DNA from: a virus
Direction: 5' to 3' (one strand)
Virus record (IMG/VR): IMGVR_UViG_3300034101_004559
Location: 1-30,931 of that record
Length of the DNA stretch: 30,931 nt
The translations under genes were made by a program, and so were the position numbers. Positions within the stretch are counted from its first letter, which is position 1; the number at the start of each line of letters is the position of its first letter. Under the pieces are notes generated by a model that ran no database searches, was not told the origin of the DNA, and worked only from the letters and a program-made list of their open reading frames with translations. Below are positions 3,275-9,794 of the stretch, piece by piece.

Positions 3275-3556
3275 ATGGGAAAAAAGGCAAAAGAACACAG
3301 AAAAAAAGTTGCAAAAAGAAATGAAAACATCAAACAAGAAGAAAAAAAGATGCAAAAAGTTTGGATGGATGCTATGCAAGAACAACTAACAAAAATGAGA
3401 GAGCAGTTTGAAAAAATGTCGGGAGATACAGAAAACGCTGAAGTCGTTGATGGTGTAGAAACCATTCAAGAAAGTATTAATATTGATGACCAAGTATTGG
3501 AAGATGGTACTAAAGTAGAAATCTCAGGTTTTCACAACGTGACTGAAAACGATTAA
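3275..3556 (+). CDS. Small basic/coiled-coil protein upstream of sbcC
   Basis: A protein of about 93 residues starting MGKKAKEHRKKVAKRNE. A strongly basic N-terminus is followed by a charged helix to about residue 55 and an acidic C-terminal part ending V-T-E-N-D. The frame also opens upstream, but only through a TTG inside the previous gene, so the ATG at 3275 after an A-rich leader is preferred. It ends 5 nt before the sbcC start. Function unknown; it may be co-translated with SbcC. Confidence 0.65.
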   Translation: MGKKAKEHRKKVAKRNENIKQEEKKMQKVWMDAMQEQLTKMREQFEKMSGDTENAEVVDGVETIQESINIDDQVLEDGTKVEISGFHNVTEND

Positions 3557-3561
3557 ATAAA

Positions 3562-5934
3562 ATGGATTTATTTAATCCACCAAAACATTTCAATTACAAT
3601 ATTATGATTAAAGACATTGATTTTTCAAAGTTTGTGAACCCGACCATTCAAGTAGTTTGGGAAGACTTTCCTGAAAACTTTACACAAGATAAAATAAAGT
3701 CGGTTAAACATTACTTTTCTAAAAAGTATAACACCACTAATGTTAATGTCTTAACTAAAGCAAAAACAACAAATACCGAGGAAACTCAAAGTGTTGATGT
3801 TTCGGTAAACATAACCGATACAAACTATCAACTTGGGTTGATTAAACAATTCTTGGAAAACAGAGGTCTTTTTTCTAATTTAGATGATGTATTAACAATT
3901 AATAGAATAGTTGAAAATAAGATTTTAGAAAAACAAGAAGAAACAACTCAATTTAAAAAATGGTATATTAAAAATATTGAGTTTTCTAACTTTTTATCTT
4001 ACGGGGAAAATCAAAAATTAGATTTTGAAAAACTTAATGGAATTGTAGTAGTTGAGTCAGACCCACCTAACTTTGGTGGGAAAACCGTTTTATCTGTGGA
4101 CCTTTTAATGTTTTTGTTCTTTAATGAAACAACAAAGACAACAAAGGCTGAGGAAATATTTAATCGTTTTACGACAAAAGATAAAGTACACGTTAAAGGG
4201 GAAGTTTCAATAGATGGTGAAGATTACGTTATAGTTAGAAACATTGAACGTAAAATGTCTAAAAAAGGTGAATGGAATGTAAAAACTGAGTTAGATTTCT
4301 TTAAAAAACTTTCAGATGGTAGTTTACAAAACTTTACAGGAGAACAAAGAAGAGAAACTGAAGCGTTCATCAAATCTTCTATCGGTACAAAAGAAGATTT
4401 TCTAATGACAATTCTCACGACAGCATCAAACCTTGAGGAATTATTGGAAGCAAAACCAACAGCAAGAGGTCAAGTCCTTTCAAGATTTATGGGATTAGAA
4501 TTTCTAAAGAAAAAAGAAGAAGTTGCAAAAGAAGTTTACGGTGAATTTTCAAAATCGAAAATGTCTAACGTTTATTCTTCACAACAATTAAAAGATGACA
4601 TTTTATCAAGTAAAGAAAAAATTAAAGAAATCAAAACTCAAATTGAAGAAAATAGACTAGAACTGATTAATATTGATTCTAACATTATGAAAGGTAAAAC
4701 TTATCGTGATGATATGTTGAAGAAAAAACATTCTAATATTGATAAAGAGTTATTACTTCTAAACCCATCAAAAACTCAAGAAGAAATCAATGCAATTGAT
4801 TTTGAAAAAAAAGGTTATATTTCTAAAATTAATGAACTTAAAGTTGTTGAACCAAGTGAGTATTATCATGAGGATAAACACGATGAGGTTAAAGAACAAT
4901 ACAACGAGGTCTATAAAGAAGTGGTTCAGATTGATACAGAAATTTCATCAATCAACAAACTGAAGTCTGAAGTAGAGGGCGGAATTAAATGTGAACACTG
5001 CGGAATTGAGTTAATGAATGCGGCAATCACAAATGCTAAAATCGCAGAACTTGATGGACTTATCGTGCATAAAAACACAAAAACAACACTTATGCATGAT
5101 TTATCCCGCAAAGAACAAAGTTTTGTTCAGTTAAAAAAAGAGTTTGATGAATATGAAAAAAACAAACTTATAAAAGAAAAGTATGAAGTGAGTGTTGAGT
5201 CTTGTGATTTAAAAATTGAAAACTTAAAACAAAAAATCAAAAGTTGGGAAGAAATCCAAGATAAAATTCAAGAAAATCAAAAAATTGATTCAATGTTAAT
5301 AAAGGCCGATTTAAGATTAGATGAACTTGAAATTCAAAAAAGTAATATTAATAACACAATATCCAACAACAAGTTTAGTATCACCACTATTGACGAAAAA
5401 ATAGAAAACAACAAAAAGTTGATAATAAGGATTAAAGAAGAGGAAGAAAAAGAAAAAATATACAAAATATATTTAGAGTTATTTGGTAAAAATGGTATTT
5501 CAAAAATGATAATGAAAACCATGATGCCACTTATCAACTCAGAACTTCAAAGGTTAATGGAAGACAGTTCATACTTCAAACTTGAAATTAGAATCTCAGA
5601 TAAAAATGAGGTGGAGTTTGTGATGATTGATAATGGAACAGGAATTGAAAAACTAATGATTTCTGGTTCAGGATTTGAAAGAACAATTGCGGCCCTTGCT
5701 CTTCGTTCTGTGTTAAGTAAGATATGTAGTTTACCCAAACCCAACGTGATTGTGTTCGATGAGGTATTCGGTAAAATTAGTAATGACAACTTGGAGATGG
5801 TTGCTGAGTTCTTTATTAAGATTAAAGAATACTTTGATAAAATATTCGTTATAAGTCACAATCCGCTCGTGAATCAATGGAATGATAGTGTTGTGAAAAT
5901 AAAAAAACAAAATAATGTGTCAAAAGTTTTGTAG
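3562..5934 (+). CDS. sbcC: SbcC/Rad50-like (T4 gp46-like) ATPase
   Basis: A 790-residue SMC-like ATPase partner of SbcD. Residues 1-130 are an extra N-terminal segment. The ATPase half starts near F-S-N-F-L-S-Y-G (about 141-148). The Walker A is unusual: S-D-P-P-N-F-G-G-K-T at 166-175. Long coiled coils flank a zinc hook, C477-E-H-C480. The C-terminal lobe has the ABC signature S-G-S-G-F-E at 701-706, Walker B V-I-V-F-D733-E734 and the H-loop V-I-S-H-N-P. It belongs to the recombination operon and is immediately followed by a nuclease gene with its own promoter inside the sbcC end. Confidence 0.93.
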   Translation: MDLFNPPKHFNYNIMIKDIDFSKFVNPTIQVVWEDFPENFTQDKIKSVKHYFSKKYNTTNVNVLTKAKTTNTEETQSVDVSVNITDTNYQLGLIKQFLENRGLFSNLDDVLTINRIVENKILEKQEETTQFKKWYIKNIEFSNFLSYGENQKLDFEKLNGIVVVESDPPNFGGKTVLSVDLLMFLFFNETTKTTKAEEIFNRFTTKDKVHVKGEVSIDGEDYVIVRNIERKMSKKGEWNVKTELDFFKKLSDGSLQNFTGEQRRETEAFIKSSIGTKEDFLMTILTTASNLEELLEAKPTARGQVLSRFMGLEFLKKKEEVAKEVYGEFSKSKMSNVYSSQQLKDDILSSKEKIKEIKTQIEENRLELINIDSNIMKGKTYRDDMLKKKHSNIDKELLLLNPSKTQEEINAIDFEKKGYISKINELKVVEPSEYYHEDKHDEVKEQYNEVYKEVVQIDTEISSINKLKSEVEGGIKCEHCGIELMNAAITNAKIAELDGLIVHKNTKTTLMHDLSRKEQSFVQLKKEFDEYEKNKLIKEKYEVSVESCDLKIENLKQKIKSWEEIQDKIQENQKIDSMLIKADLRLDELEIQKSNINNTISNNKFSITTIDEKIENNKKLIIRIKEEEEKEKIYKIYLELFGKNGISKMIMKTMMPLINSELQRLMEDSSYFKLEIRISDKNEVEFVMIDNGTGIEKLMISGSGFERTIAALALRSVLSKICSLPKPNVIVFDEVFGKISNDNLEMVAEFFIKIKEYFDKIFVISHNPLVNQWNDSVVKIKKQNNVSKVL

Positions 5935-6524: not shown

Positions 6525-7115
6525 ATGAGAAAGAAAAAAACAGAAATGGAATCAGAAGGAAAACAATTTATGTTATTCATGTTTGGTGACTTCGTAGACA
6601 ACGAAAGTTTCATTACAGACGTATCTTATCAGTTGATTACCGTTGTAAGTTCAAAGTTCATGAAATTTAATTATGGGGAGTTTGGCATGGTTATTAACTT
6701 CAGAACCAAAGAAACTTTCGAAGACCTCAAAGAATATGTTGACATGTGTATGAATGAGGTAGTGGAACAGTATTTCTTAATGGAAGTAACATCCAACATA
6801 GATATCAAAATGGACCAAAAATTGAAGAGAGATTTTTTAAATATAGACGGAGTAAAAAAACCAACAAAAACAAAAGGAGTAAGCAAAGATGATTTATCAG
6901 ATGAAAAAAAGAAAAGAATAAGTGGTATGATGGAATTTATTTTTCCTTTAACAGAGGACGTTCTTAAATTCCCATTCAACAGAGAAGAAAAAAAAGAGAA
7001 ACCGACAGTAGACCAGATTTTAGATAAAATATCAGAAAAAGGAATAGAGTCATTAACAGAGGAAGAAAAACAAATATTAGACAATTATGGAAAGAGAGAA
7101 GACCGAGGAAATTAA
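6525..7115 (+). CDS. Conserved phage protein of unknown function
   Basis: A 196-residue protein. The first 100 residues form an alpha/beta-looking domain (Q-F-M-L-F-M-F-G-D-F-V-D-N-E). A lysine-rich linker and a C-terminal 30-residue tail follow. The tail, I-L-D-K-I-S-E-K-G-I-E-S-L-T-E-E-E-K, is a helical module also found at the end of Bacteroidota rhomboid-type proteins. TATTTAT at 6520-6526 overlaps the ATG used here; if it is a promoter, the in-frame ATG at 6546 is the better start. The 3' end overlaps the sigma gene by 29 nt. Function unknown. Confidence 0.6.
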   Translation: MRKKKTEMESEGKQFMLFMFGDFVDNESFITDVSYQLITVVSSKFMKFNYGEFGMVINFRTKETFEDLKEYVDMCMNEVVEQYFLMEVTSNIDIKMDQKLKRDFLNIDGVKKPTKTKGVSKDDLSDEKKKRISGMMEFIFPLTEDVLKFPFNREEKKEKPTVDQILDKISEKGIESLTEEEKQILDNYGKREDRGN

Positions 7116-7902
7116 ATCAACAAACCCAATTAACCAAGACGAGATTCAAATTTATTTAAAGGACATTAGAAAAATAAAAGTCATGACCCCCGAAAGGGAG
7201 AAGTTCTTGGCTGAAAGAATTTCTTCTAATGATTGTACTGAACGAGAAAAAGAACAAATCCAAAAAGAAATGTTGGAAGGTAACTTACGATTTGTAATTA
7301 CAGTTGCTAAACAATATCAAAATCAGGGAATTGATTTATCAGACCTTATTGCTGAAGGTAATTTCGGACTAATGAAAGCAATCAAGAATTTCGATTGGAC
7401 CAAAAAAAATAGATTTATATCTTACGCCGTTTGGTGGATTAAACAATCAATCTTACAATCACTTAACGACAACTCAAGAACAATTAGACTACCGGTCAAT
7501 GTTGTACAAGACATGCAAAAAGAAAAGAAGTTGAATGAAAAAACAAATGGCGAGTTGTCTGAAAAGTTTGCAACACTTCCACGTATTATAGATTTGGACA
7601 TGCACATTAATGAAGATGGTGATACTTTAATTGATGTTATAAAAAACGAAAACGTAGAGTCACCTGATGAAATGTTTTCAACAAAAGATATTCTAAAAGA
7701 AAAGATGTTAAGAATAATGTCAGTTTTGGATGAAAGAGAAAAAACTATAGTTGAAGATTATTACGGAATTACAGGAACTCCAAGAACATTAGAAGACATT
7801 GGTACAGATTTTGGTCTTACAAAAGAAAGAGTTAGACAAATTAAAGAAAAAGCTCTTAGAAAACTTCGTAACGAATGTTCAGATTTATTTGAATATTTAT
7901 GA
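7087..7902 (+). CDS. RpoD-like sigma-70 factor, compact
   Basis: A 271-residue sigma factor. Region 1.2 lies near residues 18-45. Region 2 starts at E-G-N-L-R-F-V-I-T-V-A-K-Q-Y-Q and includes the -10-reading helix F-I-S-Y-A-V-W-W-I-K-Q-S-I. Region 3 is shortened. Region 4 ends with the helix-turn-helix L-T-K-E-R-V-R-Q-I-K-E-K-A-L. Its size and layout are close to the small RpoD of Bacteroidota (about 287 aa) and unlike the divergent T4 late sigma gp55. It is the last gene before a strong terminator. It probably redirects host RNA polymerase to phage promoters; which class is not shown by sequence alone. Confidence 0.92.
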   Translation: MEREKTEEIKSTNPINQDEIQIYLKDIRKIKVMTPEREKFLAERISSNDCTEREKEQIQKEMLEGNLRFVITVAKQYQNQGIDLSDLIAEGNFGLMKAIKNFDWTKKNRFISYAVWWIKQSILQSLNDNSRTIRLPVNVVQDMQKEKKLNEKTNGELSEKFATLPRIIDLDMHINEDGDTLIDVIKNENVESPDEMFSTKDILKEKMLRIMSVLDEREKTIVEDYYGITGTPRTLEDIGTDFGLTKERVRQIKEKALRKLRNECSDLFEYL

Positions 7903-7984
7903 TAAAAAGTTTGGAAGTTATCAAAGTAAGTATTATCTTTGTTAAATAATCAAATAGTTCTTTTTGTCAGAATACATTTAGAAC

Positions 7985-8015
7985 AACCACGGTCAGAATA
8001 CCGTGGTTTTTTTTT
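7985..8015 (+). terminator. Rho-independent terminator after the sigma gene
   Basis: Stem CCACGG (7987-7992) and CCGTGG (8001-8006), extendable by two A-T pairs, with an 8-nt loop and nine Ts at 8007-8015. It ends the operon of 1-7902 and abuts the stop of the convergent gene at 8014. Confidence 0.88.
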
Positions 8016-8409
8016 ACACGTAAATTTGTAGTTGACCCTTACCGACAGTAAAATCTTCTTTTTTCATTACGGTAATAATTACAAGATTCCAATTAATCGA
8101 GTCAATCTTTTCAGGTAGTATAACTAAGTTTAAATTATCACCACCATCTCTACTTAATATAAATCTTCTACCGTTTTTTATATCACCATCTATTATGTGA
8201 TATATTATTTCATCTAAACCTGATTTTAGAAGTCTTATTATATCTAAATCATATATTTTATTTTCAGAACCATGTCTCCATTTTCTTTGTTGAGTATGAC
8301 CACCAGCATCGTGATATATTTCAAATGAAAACTTGATTTCCTTTTTTAAATCATGAAACTTTTCTTCCTTTAATAAGTTTTTTCTTATTATTTGATTGAT
8401 ATTTATCAT
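8014..8409 (-). CDS. DUF4258/BrnT-like protein with N-terminal packaging-type tag
   Basis: A 131-residue protein. Residues 1-17 (M-I-N-I-N-Q-I-I-R-K-N-L-L-K-E-E) form an amphipathic helix ending L-K-E, like a T4 capsid-targeting sequence with a prohead protease site. The rest has the layout of DUF4258/BrnT folds: H-T-Q-Q-R-x2-R, then D-I-I-R-L-L-K-S-G, then beta strands ending W-N-L-V-I-I-T-V-M-K-K-E-D-F. That fold is related to RelE-type toxins. It is a single gene with its own TATTTAT element 4 nt before the ATG. I infer a virion-packaged protein, possibly an injected nuclease-like effector; family assignment is by eye. Confidence 0.6.
   Translation of the reverse strand: MININQIIRKNLLKEEKFHDLKKEIKFSFEIYHDAGGHTQQRKWRHGSENKIYDLDIIRLLKSGLDEIIYHIIDGDIKNGRRFILSRDGGDNLNLVILPEKIDSINWNLVIITVMKKEDFTVGKGQLQIYV
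8400..8406 (+). promoter_or_regulatory. TATTTAT element on the plus strand, upstream of the candidate RNA
   Basis: TATTTAT (8400-8406) faces the minus-strand copy at 8414-8420 across 7 nt, forming an inverted repeat. It lies 29 nt before the first base of the structured RNA at 8436. It could start that RNA, or it could be coincidence because it lies within the minus gene's first codons. Confidence 0.3.
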
Positions 8410-8413
8410 AACA

Positions 8414-8420
8414 ATAAATA
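8414..8420 (-). promoter_or_regulatory. TATTTAT element before the DUF4258-like gene
   Basis: TATTTAT on the minus strand ends 4 nt before the ATG. The same element and spacing recur before other tagged genes (12506, 23666, 28717). Interpreted as a phage late-type -10 element. Confidence 0.5.
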
Positions 8421-8435
8421 TAAGTGAATTTAATA

Positions 8436-8565
8436 ATGGGTTGAACCGAGATTACCCATACAACTCGGCGGAATAAGACACGAAGTTCTTTGGGTGAAAA
8501 TCCTCAATTCTACTAATGTGATAGAATGAAACTACACTACCCCCACGGTACCAATGGGGGTTTTT
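8436..8565 (+). ncRNA. Candidate structured RNA: H-type pseudoknot, hairpin, terminator
   Basis: A non-coding stretch with dense, interlocked pairing. Stem 1 is ATGGGT (8436-8441) with ACCCAT (8454-8459). Stem 2 is CCGAG (8446-8450), inside the stem 1 loop, with CTCGG (8464-8468). Together they give an H-type pseudoknot with loops of 4, 3 and 4 nt. Further 3', ATTCTA (8507-8512) pairs with TAGAAT (8522-8527), and CCCCCA/TGGGGG before a T-run ends the unit. A second TGGGT at 8491-8495 could compete for ACCCA, giving an alternative fold. It may be a free small RNA or a leader controlling the membrane gene at 8601. No match to a known riboswitch or ribozyme consensus was recognised. Confidence 0.6.
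8540..8565 (+). terminator. Rho-independent terminator of the candidate RNA
   Basis: CCCCCA (8540-8545) pairs with TGGGGG (8555-8560) across a 9-nt loop, followed by TTTTT (8561-8565). No protein gene ends just upstream on the plus strand, so it must terminate an untranslated transcript or act as an attenuator for the gene at 8601. Confidence 0.8.
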
Positions 8566-8577
8566 ATTTATATTTAC

Positions 8578-8584
8578 TATTTAT
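8578..8584 (+). promoter_or_regulatory. TATTTAT element before the membrane/coiled-coil gene
   Basis: TATTTAT lies 16 nt before the ATG at 8601, the same distance as the copy upstream of the tagged gene at 18396. A second copy (8565-8571) overlaps the end of the terminator. Confidence 0.4.
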
Positions 8585-8600
8585 CTATTATAGTTGTGAT

Positions 8601-9794
8601 ATGAAAGATAAATTATTACCTTGGTTTTTACTGTTTTGTGCTCTTGGATTGTCAGGTACTGCTGCGTATTATAGTGTTATTGGATTATCTGTGGTTTTTG
8701 TTGGAGTTGCTATACCTGTAATAGTAATGGGTTCATTTTTGGAACTATCTAAGATTGCAATTGCAACATACCTTCACGATAAATGGAAGGAAACTTATGG
8801 TATTTTAAAAATATACATGACAATCGCACTTGTCACCCTTTCATTAATAACTTCCCTTGGAATATATGGATTATTGAGTACAGGGTTTCAAGGAAACATC
8901 GCAAAACTTGAAATCAACGAAAAACAGGTTAAAAATGTTGAAGTAAAAAAGAAACGTTTTGAAGAAATAAAAACTGAACTAACAAAAGAAAAAACAACCT
9001 TAGATGGGGATATAACAAAATTAAGGGACGGATTGTCAAACAACACAACCACACAATCTGTGGACCAAAGAACGGGGCAAGTTGTAACAAGAGCAAATAA
9101 CGCAAATAGAAAAACATTTGAGCTACAATTAAAAGATGCTCAAATAAGAAGAGATACCATCGCTAAAAGAATTGACAACATGAATGATAGTATTACAAAG
9201 TTAGATGTTGAAATACTCAATATGGAATCAAAAGAGATTTCAGGAAGTGAATTAGGGGCTTTAAAATATGTTAGTGAACTTCTTGATTGGGACATAAAAA
9301 GAACTGCAAATTTATTCATTCTAATTTTAATATTTGTTTTTGACCCATTAGCAATCACTTTGGTAATCGCAACAAACCAAGCATTCAAAACAAATAAAAA
9401 AGAAGAGGAGACCCCCCAAGTCACCCCACAAGTCACCCCCCAAGTCACCCCTCAAGTCGAAGAGATAGTTGAAATTCCACAGGAAGAAGAACCGAAGAAT
9501 GAAGAAGTTGTTGTACCTGAAAATTTATTGACTTTTGCTGAAAATTTCGAGTGGAATTTAACAGATACTACAGAAGAAAAAGAAGAAGAACCTATAATTG
9601 AAGAAATTGTTGAAGAGGAACCTATTGTTGAGATAATTGAAGAACAACCCGAAAAAAATGAAGAAGAAGTTAAAGAAGAAACTTTAGAAAGTAACACTGA
9701 GGTTGTAAACTATGAAGAACCAAGACAATTAAGAAAATTAACCTACACAAATAGAAATAATAATAGTGGTTCAATTCGAATTAACAGATTTTAG
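8601..9794 (+). CDS. Multi-pass membrane protein with coiled coil and acidic tail
   Basis: A 397-residue protein. An upstream in-frame ATG at 8526 would translate through the terminator, so the ATG at 8601 (M-K-D-K-L-L-P-W-F) is chosen. Residues of about 5-105 hold three or four transmembrane helices. A long charged coiled coil follows (about 110-235), then another membrane helix (L-F-I-L-I-L-I-F-V-F-D-P-L-A). Next come four T-P-Q-V repeats and a strongly Glu-rich tail ending in basic residues. It precedes the amidase-like and spanin-like genes, so a lysis or envelope role is possible. No holin family was recognised. Confidence 0.7.
   Translation: MKDKLLPWFLLFCALGLSGTAAYYSVIGLSVVFVGVAIPVIVMGSFLELSKIAIATYLHDKWKETYGILKIYMTIALVTLSLITSLGIYGLLSTGFQGNIAKLEINEKQVKNVEVKKKRFEEIKTELTKEKTTLDGDITKLRDGLSNNTTTQSVDQRTGQVVTRANNANRKTFELQLKDAQIRRDTIAKRIDNMNDSITKLDVEILNMESKEISGSELGALKYVSELLDWDIKRTANLFILILIFVFDPLAITLVIATNQAFKTNKKEEETPQVTPQVTPQVTPQVEEIVEIPQEEEPKNEEVVVPENLLTFAENFEWNLTDTTEEKEEEPIIEEIVEEEPIVEIIEEQPEKNEEEVKEETLESNTEVVNYEEPRQLRKLTYTNRNNNSGSIRINRF
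9411..9458 (+). repeat. Four tandem 12-bp repeats encoding TPQV
   Basis: Four units of ACC-CCN-CAA-GTC in frame, differing only at the third base of the proline codon (CCC, CCA, CCC, CCT). They form a short extended linker between the last membrane helix and the acidic tail of the protein at 8601-9794. Confidence 0.9.

Follow-up and report, generated by a model that had tools for sequence, protein, structure and literature searches.

Between two genes of a viral DNA of 30,931 nucleotides (IMG/VR record IMGVR_UViG_3300034101_004559; this whole stretch is called the window here), a compact RNA with two interlocking stems had been noticed, and the initial annotation left two readings side by side: a phage small RNA, or a switch controlling the membrane gene at 8601. 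Which of the two does this locus encode? The small-RNA reading has held up, as the element, here called RNA-A, was found in many contigs with covarying helices and its own terminator, in some of them with its own promoter, and without any match in Rfam. Judged from comparative sequence analysis, we put the probability that RNA-A exists as a family independent of the next gene at about 75%. RNA-A is a folded noncoding RNA of about 125-140 nt, located at about 8426-8565 of the window, with the following parts:

8437 to 8468, plus strand: H-type pseudoknot, near-invariant over 47 sequences, its outermost S1 pair covarying
8437-8441/8454-8458, plus strand: stem S1, extended in the window to 8436-8459 (8436-8441 ATGGGT with 8454-8459 ACCCAT)
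8446-8450 (CCGAG)/8464-8468 (CTCGG), plus strand: stem S2, interlocking with S1
8442-8445, 8451-8453 and 8459-8463, plus strand: pseudoknot loops L1, L2 and L3
8475 to 8490, plus strand: hairpin P3 (8475-8478/8487-8490), with 4 of 4 pairs covarying over 47 sequences
8492 to 8504, plus strand: hairpin P4 with the T-loop-like loop UGAAAAU (8495-8501); outer pair A-U, G-U or G-C, GG/CC and most of the loop conserved
8505 to 8528, plus strand: hairpin P5 (the 8507-8527 hairpin plus the pair C8505-G8528), with two-sided changes in 4 of 9 pairs and 98% of cells paired
8539 to 8565, plus strand: intrinsic terminator CCCCCACGGTACCAATGGGGGTTTTT, a stem (8539-8545/8555-8561) and a T run, with 7 of 9 stem pairs covarying

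The two interlocking stems, the 8507-8527 hairpin and the 8540-8565 terminator were all found where the initial annotation had placed them; P3 and the T-loop-like P4 are two further hairpins that it had overlooked. Its statement that no open frame runs through the RNA needed correction, as an ATG at 8526 opens a frame that continues in phase into the 8601 gene; this frame is regarded as incidental, since relatives carry another gene downstream of the RNA. In the single window sequence the pseudoknot is only mildly unusual at most: of 300 dinucleotide shuffles of the opening 45 nt of RNA-A, 4 had pseudoknot stems as long, and the plain minimum free energy fold of the window RNA is ordinary (z = -1.1). 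The reality of the fold was decided by conservation among relatives.

When the protein gene at 8601 was used as query, 80 related viral loci were retrieved, and in many of them a blastn search revealed an RNA region about 74-86% identical, lying immediately before the membrane gene or some 500 bp upstream. One pattern, in which the middle of stem 2 was unconstrained, matched 71 IMG/VR contigs, all of which were recognised as members by a profile, and a few variants (L003, L056, L075) lie beyond these 71. Weak model matches in L008 and L064 were rejected as low-scoring, the one in L008 falling inside a coding region. Looser patterns, with either S2 or the 3′ strand of S1 left free, returned known members and chance matches only, so that they provided no diverged member in which S2 could be tested by covariation. 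RNA-A is single-copy in the whole records searched and absent from several large ones, although these records may be incomplete. No similarity to RNA-A was found in E. coli, in plasmids or in the annotated phage isolates searched; a pattern scan of GTDB contigs gave six matches, all due to chance, and no member; and none was obtained by the model under strict filters from 395 genomes of the phylum of a Bacteroidales assembly, a set that held no positive control. In Flavobacterium phage immuto and other isolate relatives of the membrane gene, the intergenic space ahead of this gene is too small to hold the RNA. Covariance models of the 4227 families of Rfam 15 gave no match in the window at gathering score, in line with the initial remark that no known class was recognised. 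A permissive Rfam search over 7900-8700 produced sub-threshold matches only, none of them spanning RNA-A convincingly; those such as MicF and sraA were rejected, being located on terminators and AT-rich sequence. No description of RNA-A was found in the open-licence literature, and on these comparative grounds RNA-A is a real, previously undescribed RNA family.

The fold was evaluated in an alignment of 47 distinct full-length RNA-A sequences. Over S1, S2, P3, P4, P5 and the terminator, 98.0% of the cells are paired, and two-sided changes occur in 17 of the 35 pairs of the structure. The covariation score was 0.305 as compared with 0.168 in shuffles, none of 500 shuffles scored as high, and the signal was destroyed when the pairing partners were slid against each other. 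Besides P3, P5 and the terminator, covarying pairs were found in P4 (1/3) and S1 (1/5) and none in S2 (0/5); covariation among homologues is thus strong in the three hairpins and the terminator and, within the pseudoknot, confined to the outermost pair of S1, all other bases of S1 and S2 being invariant. This outermost pair is T-A in 16 sequences and A-T in 25, and it switched at least 7 times on the tree of the neighbouring gene, a count that recombination may inflate. No more than four independent row pairs could be formed on well supported branches, 3 or 4 of them going the same way (sign test 0.125), which is suggestive of S1 pairing and no more. S2, which never varies, has no covariation support within the family. 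RNAalifold, a program unable to represent pseudoknots, retains S2 and swaps S1 for GGTT/AAAC(T), pairing columns 3-6 with 95-98; this closing helix also fits the RNA-A sequences and its formation would exclude S1, so that the pseudoknot is likely but short of proven. The second TGGGT (8491-8495), which had been proposed to compete for the ACCCA of S1, is indeed present. The family does not conserve a pairing between it and ACCCA, though: of the 47 sequences, 23 have C-A at columns 21-56 and 22 have a pair at columns 22-55. A nested minimum free energy fold that joins the two was rejected for this reason.

The surroundings of RNA-A in the window are as follows:

7087 to 7902, plus strand: gene of a sigma-70 family factor (family C1; Pfam Sigma70_r2/r4/r1_2, PHROG 351), which marks the RNA slot
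7910 to 8010, plus strand: RNA-C, with a promoter TTTG-N20-TATCTTTG and two hairpins having the same loop GTCAGAATAC, the second being a terminator
8014 to 8409, minus strand: small gene of family C8, an open reading frame divergent from the RNA in the window
8391 to 8422, plus strand: degenerate promoter-like element TTTG-N20-TAAATATA, with 14 nt between it and the RNA core downstream
8578 to 8592: motif TATTTATCTATTATA ahead of the membrane gene; most relatives have it, whether or not they carry the RNA
8601 to 9794, plus strand: membrane-type protein gene of family C0, without Pfam or PHROG match

Elsewhere in the window (1-30931) are genes for an SbcC/SbcD-like pair, an exonuclease, two DNA methyltransferases, a PcfJ-like protein and an amidase-like protein, besides the sigma-70 family factor; there are no tRNA genes. 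The small C8 and C12 proteins that flank the slot (for example window 8014-8409 and L111) start alike, with a Leu/Lys-rich stretch that closes with LLE or ILE and may be a common N-terminal signal.

A full promoter, TTTG-N-TANNTTTG, was found in 8 of 50 distinct sequences upstream of RNA-A (0.02 expected by shuffling) and the -7 box in 12 of 50 (1.1 expected), at a distance of 14 or 22 nt upstream of the core. The consensus of the Bacteroidetes primary sigma factor is -33 TTTG / -7 TAnnTTTG (PMC7366714), and the match to it is the main evidence that the uncultured carrier phages probably infect Bacteroidota. In the window, spacer and 14-nt distance are identical to those of the relatives' full promoters TTTG-N20-TANNTTTG. 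The window element matches the consensus at 8 of 10 bases (P about 0.006 for this fixed position), a score that was reached somewhere in 263 of 500 shuffles, and it is a weak candidate for the promoter of RNA-A. From these signals we infer that RNA-A would be made as a discrete transcript.

RNA-A behaves as an accessory gene of a slot that follows the sigma-factor gene, its upstream neighbour in most contexts, and precedes the membrane-protein gene. The slot was followed on a tree of the neighbouring gene with 82 rows, three truncated loci being left out; the loci had been collected via the membrane gene and via the RNA itself, so the sample is biased in this respect. RNA-A stands alone in 46 rows and together with B, C or B and E in 11, and the remaining 25 hold B, C, D, E, F/G or none. 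On this tree the presence of RNA-A changes, by gain or loss, at least 13 times and the slot content at least 26 times; even near-identical relatives differ, L040 being without RNA-A and L036 and L038 with it. The other RNAs outside the window are:

L008:3701-3860; also L006, L060, L110, L111, L119, L158, L165-L167 and L175: RNA-B, a second conserved RNA
L044:3272-3460: RNA-D, one copy, with the element order of RNA-B and different stem sequences
L012, L026, L034, L046 and L052 at about 3410-3600 (L012: 2840-2977); also L119 and L152: RNA-E
L045:3345-3510 and 2440-2650, L123:2780-2960: RNA-F and RNA-G, intergenic, behind the same promoter type as that of RNA-A

RNA-B has its own promoter, a 5′ leader or hairpin, interlocked stems, a T-loop-like hairpin and a terminator, in the order S1 CGGGA/TCCTG, S2 GCTTAC/GTAAGT, P3, GGGTTTAAATTCC, P5 and terminator; in RNA-D the order is S1 AAATGG/CCATTT, S2 TGACTTG/CAAGTCG, P3, GGTTTAAATACC and P5. 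The two have the unpaired CGGTTA and TTTAAAT in common, and their helices change sequence yet stay paired, as far as an alignment by eye can tell. For their S1/S2, 11 of 300 and 0 of 300 shuffles, respectively, did as well; the end pair of S1 in RNA-B goes from C-G to T-A in L167 and is broken in L166. A search with the D-loop/T-loop pattern revealed one more RNA-B variant (L175, L182) and otherwise coding sequence. RNA-B and RNA-D share with RNA-A the slot, the promoter type and the order S1/S2, hairpin, T-loop-like hairpin, hairpin and terminator. Neither is in Rfam. No sequence similarity to RNA-A was detectable, however, and common descent is for that reason not claimed; interlocked stems of quite different sequence nevertheless lend indirect support to the RNA-A pseudoknot. 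RNA-C shares the slot with RNA-A but is separate from it; in L008, L056, L073 and others its stems vary while the loop GTCAGAATAC is largely kept, so RNA-C may represent a further small RNA or two loops for protein binding. RNA-E is conserved, has the look of a three-way junction with the loop ATGGAAGACGATTMAGATAC, and reaches or enters the end of the opposite gene C8. The RNA-F of L123 lies about 10 kb away from RNA-A; a check of one RNA-F stretch turned up no interlocking stems of 5 or more pairs each, and RNA-F is therefore not claimed to share the RNA-A design.

We propose that RNA-A would be an independent, trans-acting noncoding RNA, built of a 5′ H-type pseudoknot, three hairpins (one T-loop-like) and an intrinsic terminator. 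A host-type promoter would drive its transcription, or the RNA would form the tail of the upstream gene's transcript, and it would end at its own terminator. The near-invariant pseudoknot could well be the surface that a protein recognises, most likely one of the host, and the swapping of RNA-A for other RNAs at one site would fit a host-specific effector or decoy. Trans action, protein binding via the invariant pseudoknot and a host-directed role are what we infer from this pattern, and the role as a protein-binding effector or decoy is put forward tentatively, as the less probable part of the proposal.

A somewhat less favoured possibility is an antisense-type small RNA that pairs with mRNAs, for which the length, terminator and own promoter would be typical and for which the conserved stretches between the helices could serve; the most conserved bases, however, sit in compact pseudoknot stems and loops and not in one long single-stranded seed. 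It is rather unlikely that RNA-A is a 3′ UTR element stabilising or ending the mRNA of the sigma factor or another upstream gene. In many other contigs the RNA core does start 3-6 nt past a stop codon, which belongs to the sigma gene or to a different one, and there, barring a promoter within the gene, the RNA would be the 3′ end of a longer transcript. But the upstream gene varies, other contigs have an own promoter, and in the window both RNA-C, with its terminator, and the opposite gene stand between the sigma gene and RNA-A.

Still less probable is a special case of the protein-binding model, in which P3 and P4 would be look-alikes of the D-arm and T-arm and the RNA would mimic a tRNA elbow. 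P4 of RNA-A has the T-loop-like loop, and RNA-B/D has CGGTTA in its P3 loop and GGTTTAAATNCC as its P4, as in D- and T-arms; the P3 loop of RNA-A, however, is without the D-loop motif, there is neither acceptor stem nor CCA end, and ARAGORN found no tRNA or tmRNA.

The membrane gene is downstream of RNA-A in almost all contexts, often with C8 between, and in many relatives C8 lies downstream of RNA-A and convergent with it. The TATTTAT..TATA motif before the membrane gene, TATTTATCTATTATA in the window, is perhaps a phage promoter class; it was found in 14 of 21 distinct upstream sequences with the RNA and in 18 of 23 without. The second reading of the initial annotation, in which RNA-A would regulate the membrane gene at 8601 in cis as a riboswitch or attenuator, is highly improbable. 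The core does end 63-96 nt upstream of this gene, with the terminator between, in the window and in roughly half of the contexts. But the constant same-strand position of a cis-leader is lost in 27 of 66 contexts, where convergent C8 separates RNA and gene, and phages without RNA-A retain both the membrane gene and its upstream motif. Of the alternative pairings that an aptamer and its expression platform might use, TGGGT/ACCCA is disrupted in about half the sequences, GGTT/AAAC being one that could serve.

As an extension of the proposed protein-binding role, the slot behind the sigma gene might be an island for interchangeable counter-defence RNAs, RNA-A, -B/D, -E and -F among them, each being a structured decoy for a different host defence protein, such as RNA-held toxins, which phages would exchange as hosts change; we regard this as speculative and rather improbable. 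Exchangeable protein cassettes in phages are a well-known source of host take-over and counter-defence genes, and a comparable exchange site for RNAs would offer a direct route to RNA effectors and their host targets. What is new here is a widely distributed phage noncoding RNA family with a nearly frozen pseudoknot, absent from Rfam, together with a fixed genome site at which different structured RNAs replace one another behind one type of host promoter.

Among known systems, H-type pseudoknot riboswitches (preQ1, SAM-II and the like) have a compact 5′ pseudoknot followed by a terminator. RNA-A has the same arrangement, but it has no fixed downstream gene and no Rfam match, and it is not a leader. 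The pseudo-ToxI of phage PhiTE is a pseudoknot RNA that counters a defence system (PMC3475682), and RNA-A, compared by description, is likewise a small, intergenic, phage-encoded pseudoknot RNA; unlike ToxI, it is single-copy, has a longer fold with three extra hairpins and lacks an adjoining toxin gene. Type III antitoxin RNAs (ToxI, CptI, TenpI) are recognised by tandem repeats of the antitoxin unit (PMC12373285); no tandem repeat was found over RNA-A, which is therefore not filed under them, and no type III toxin gene lies directly downstream, the place being taken by C0 or, in other contexts, by C8. The AbiF-type antitoxin RNA RCd22 is also structured, terminator-bearing and carried in a phage genome, but abiF motifs are repeated hairpins adjoining an abiF gene (PMC12373285), whereas RNA-A has no repeats, no adjacent abiF gene and no Rfam match. 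With covarying helices and its own terminator, RNA-A has the marks of a structured phage noncoding RNA.
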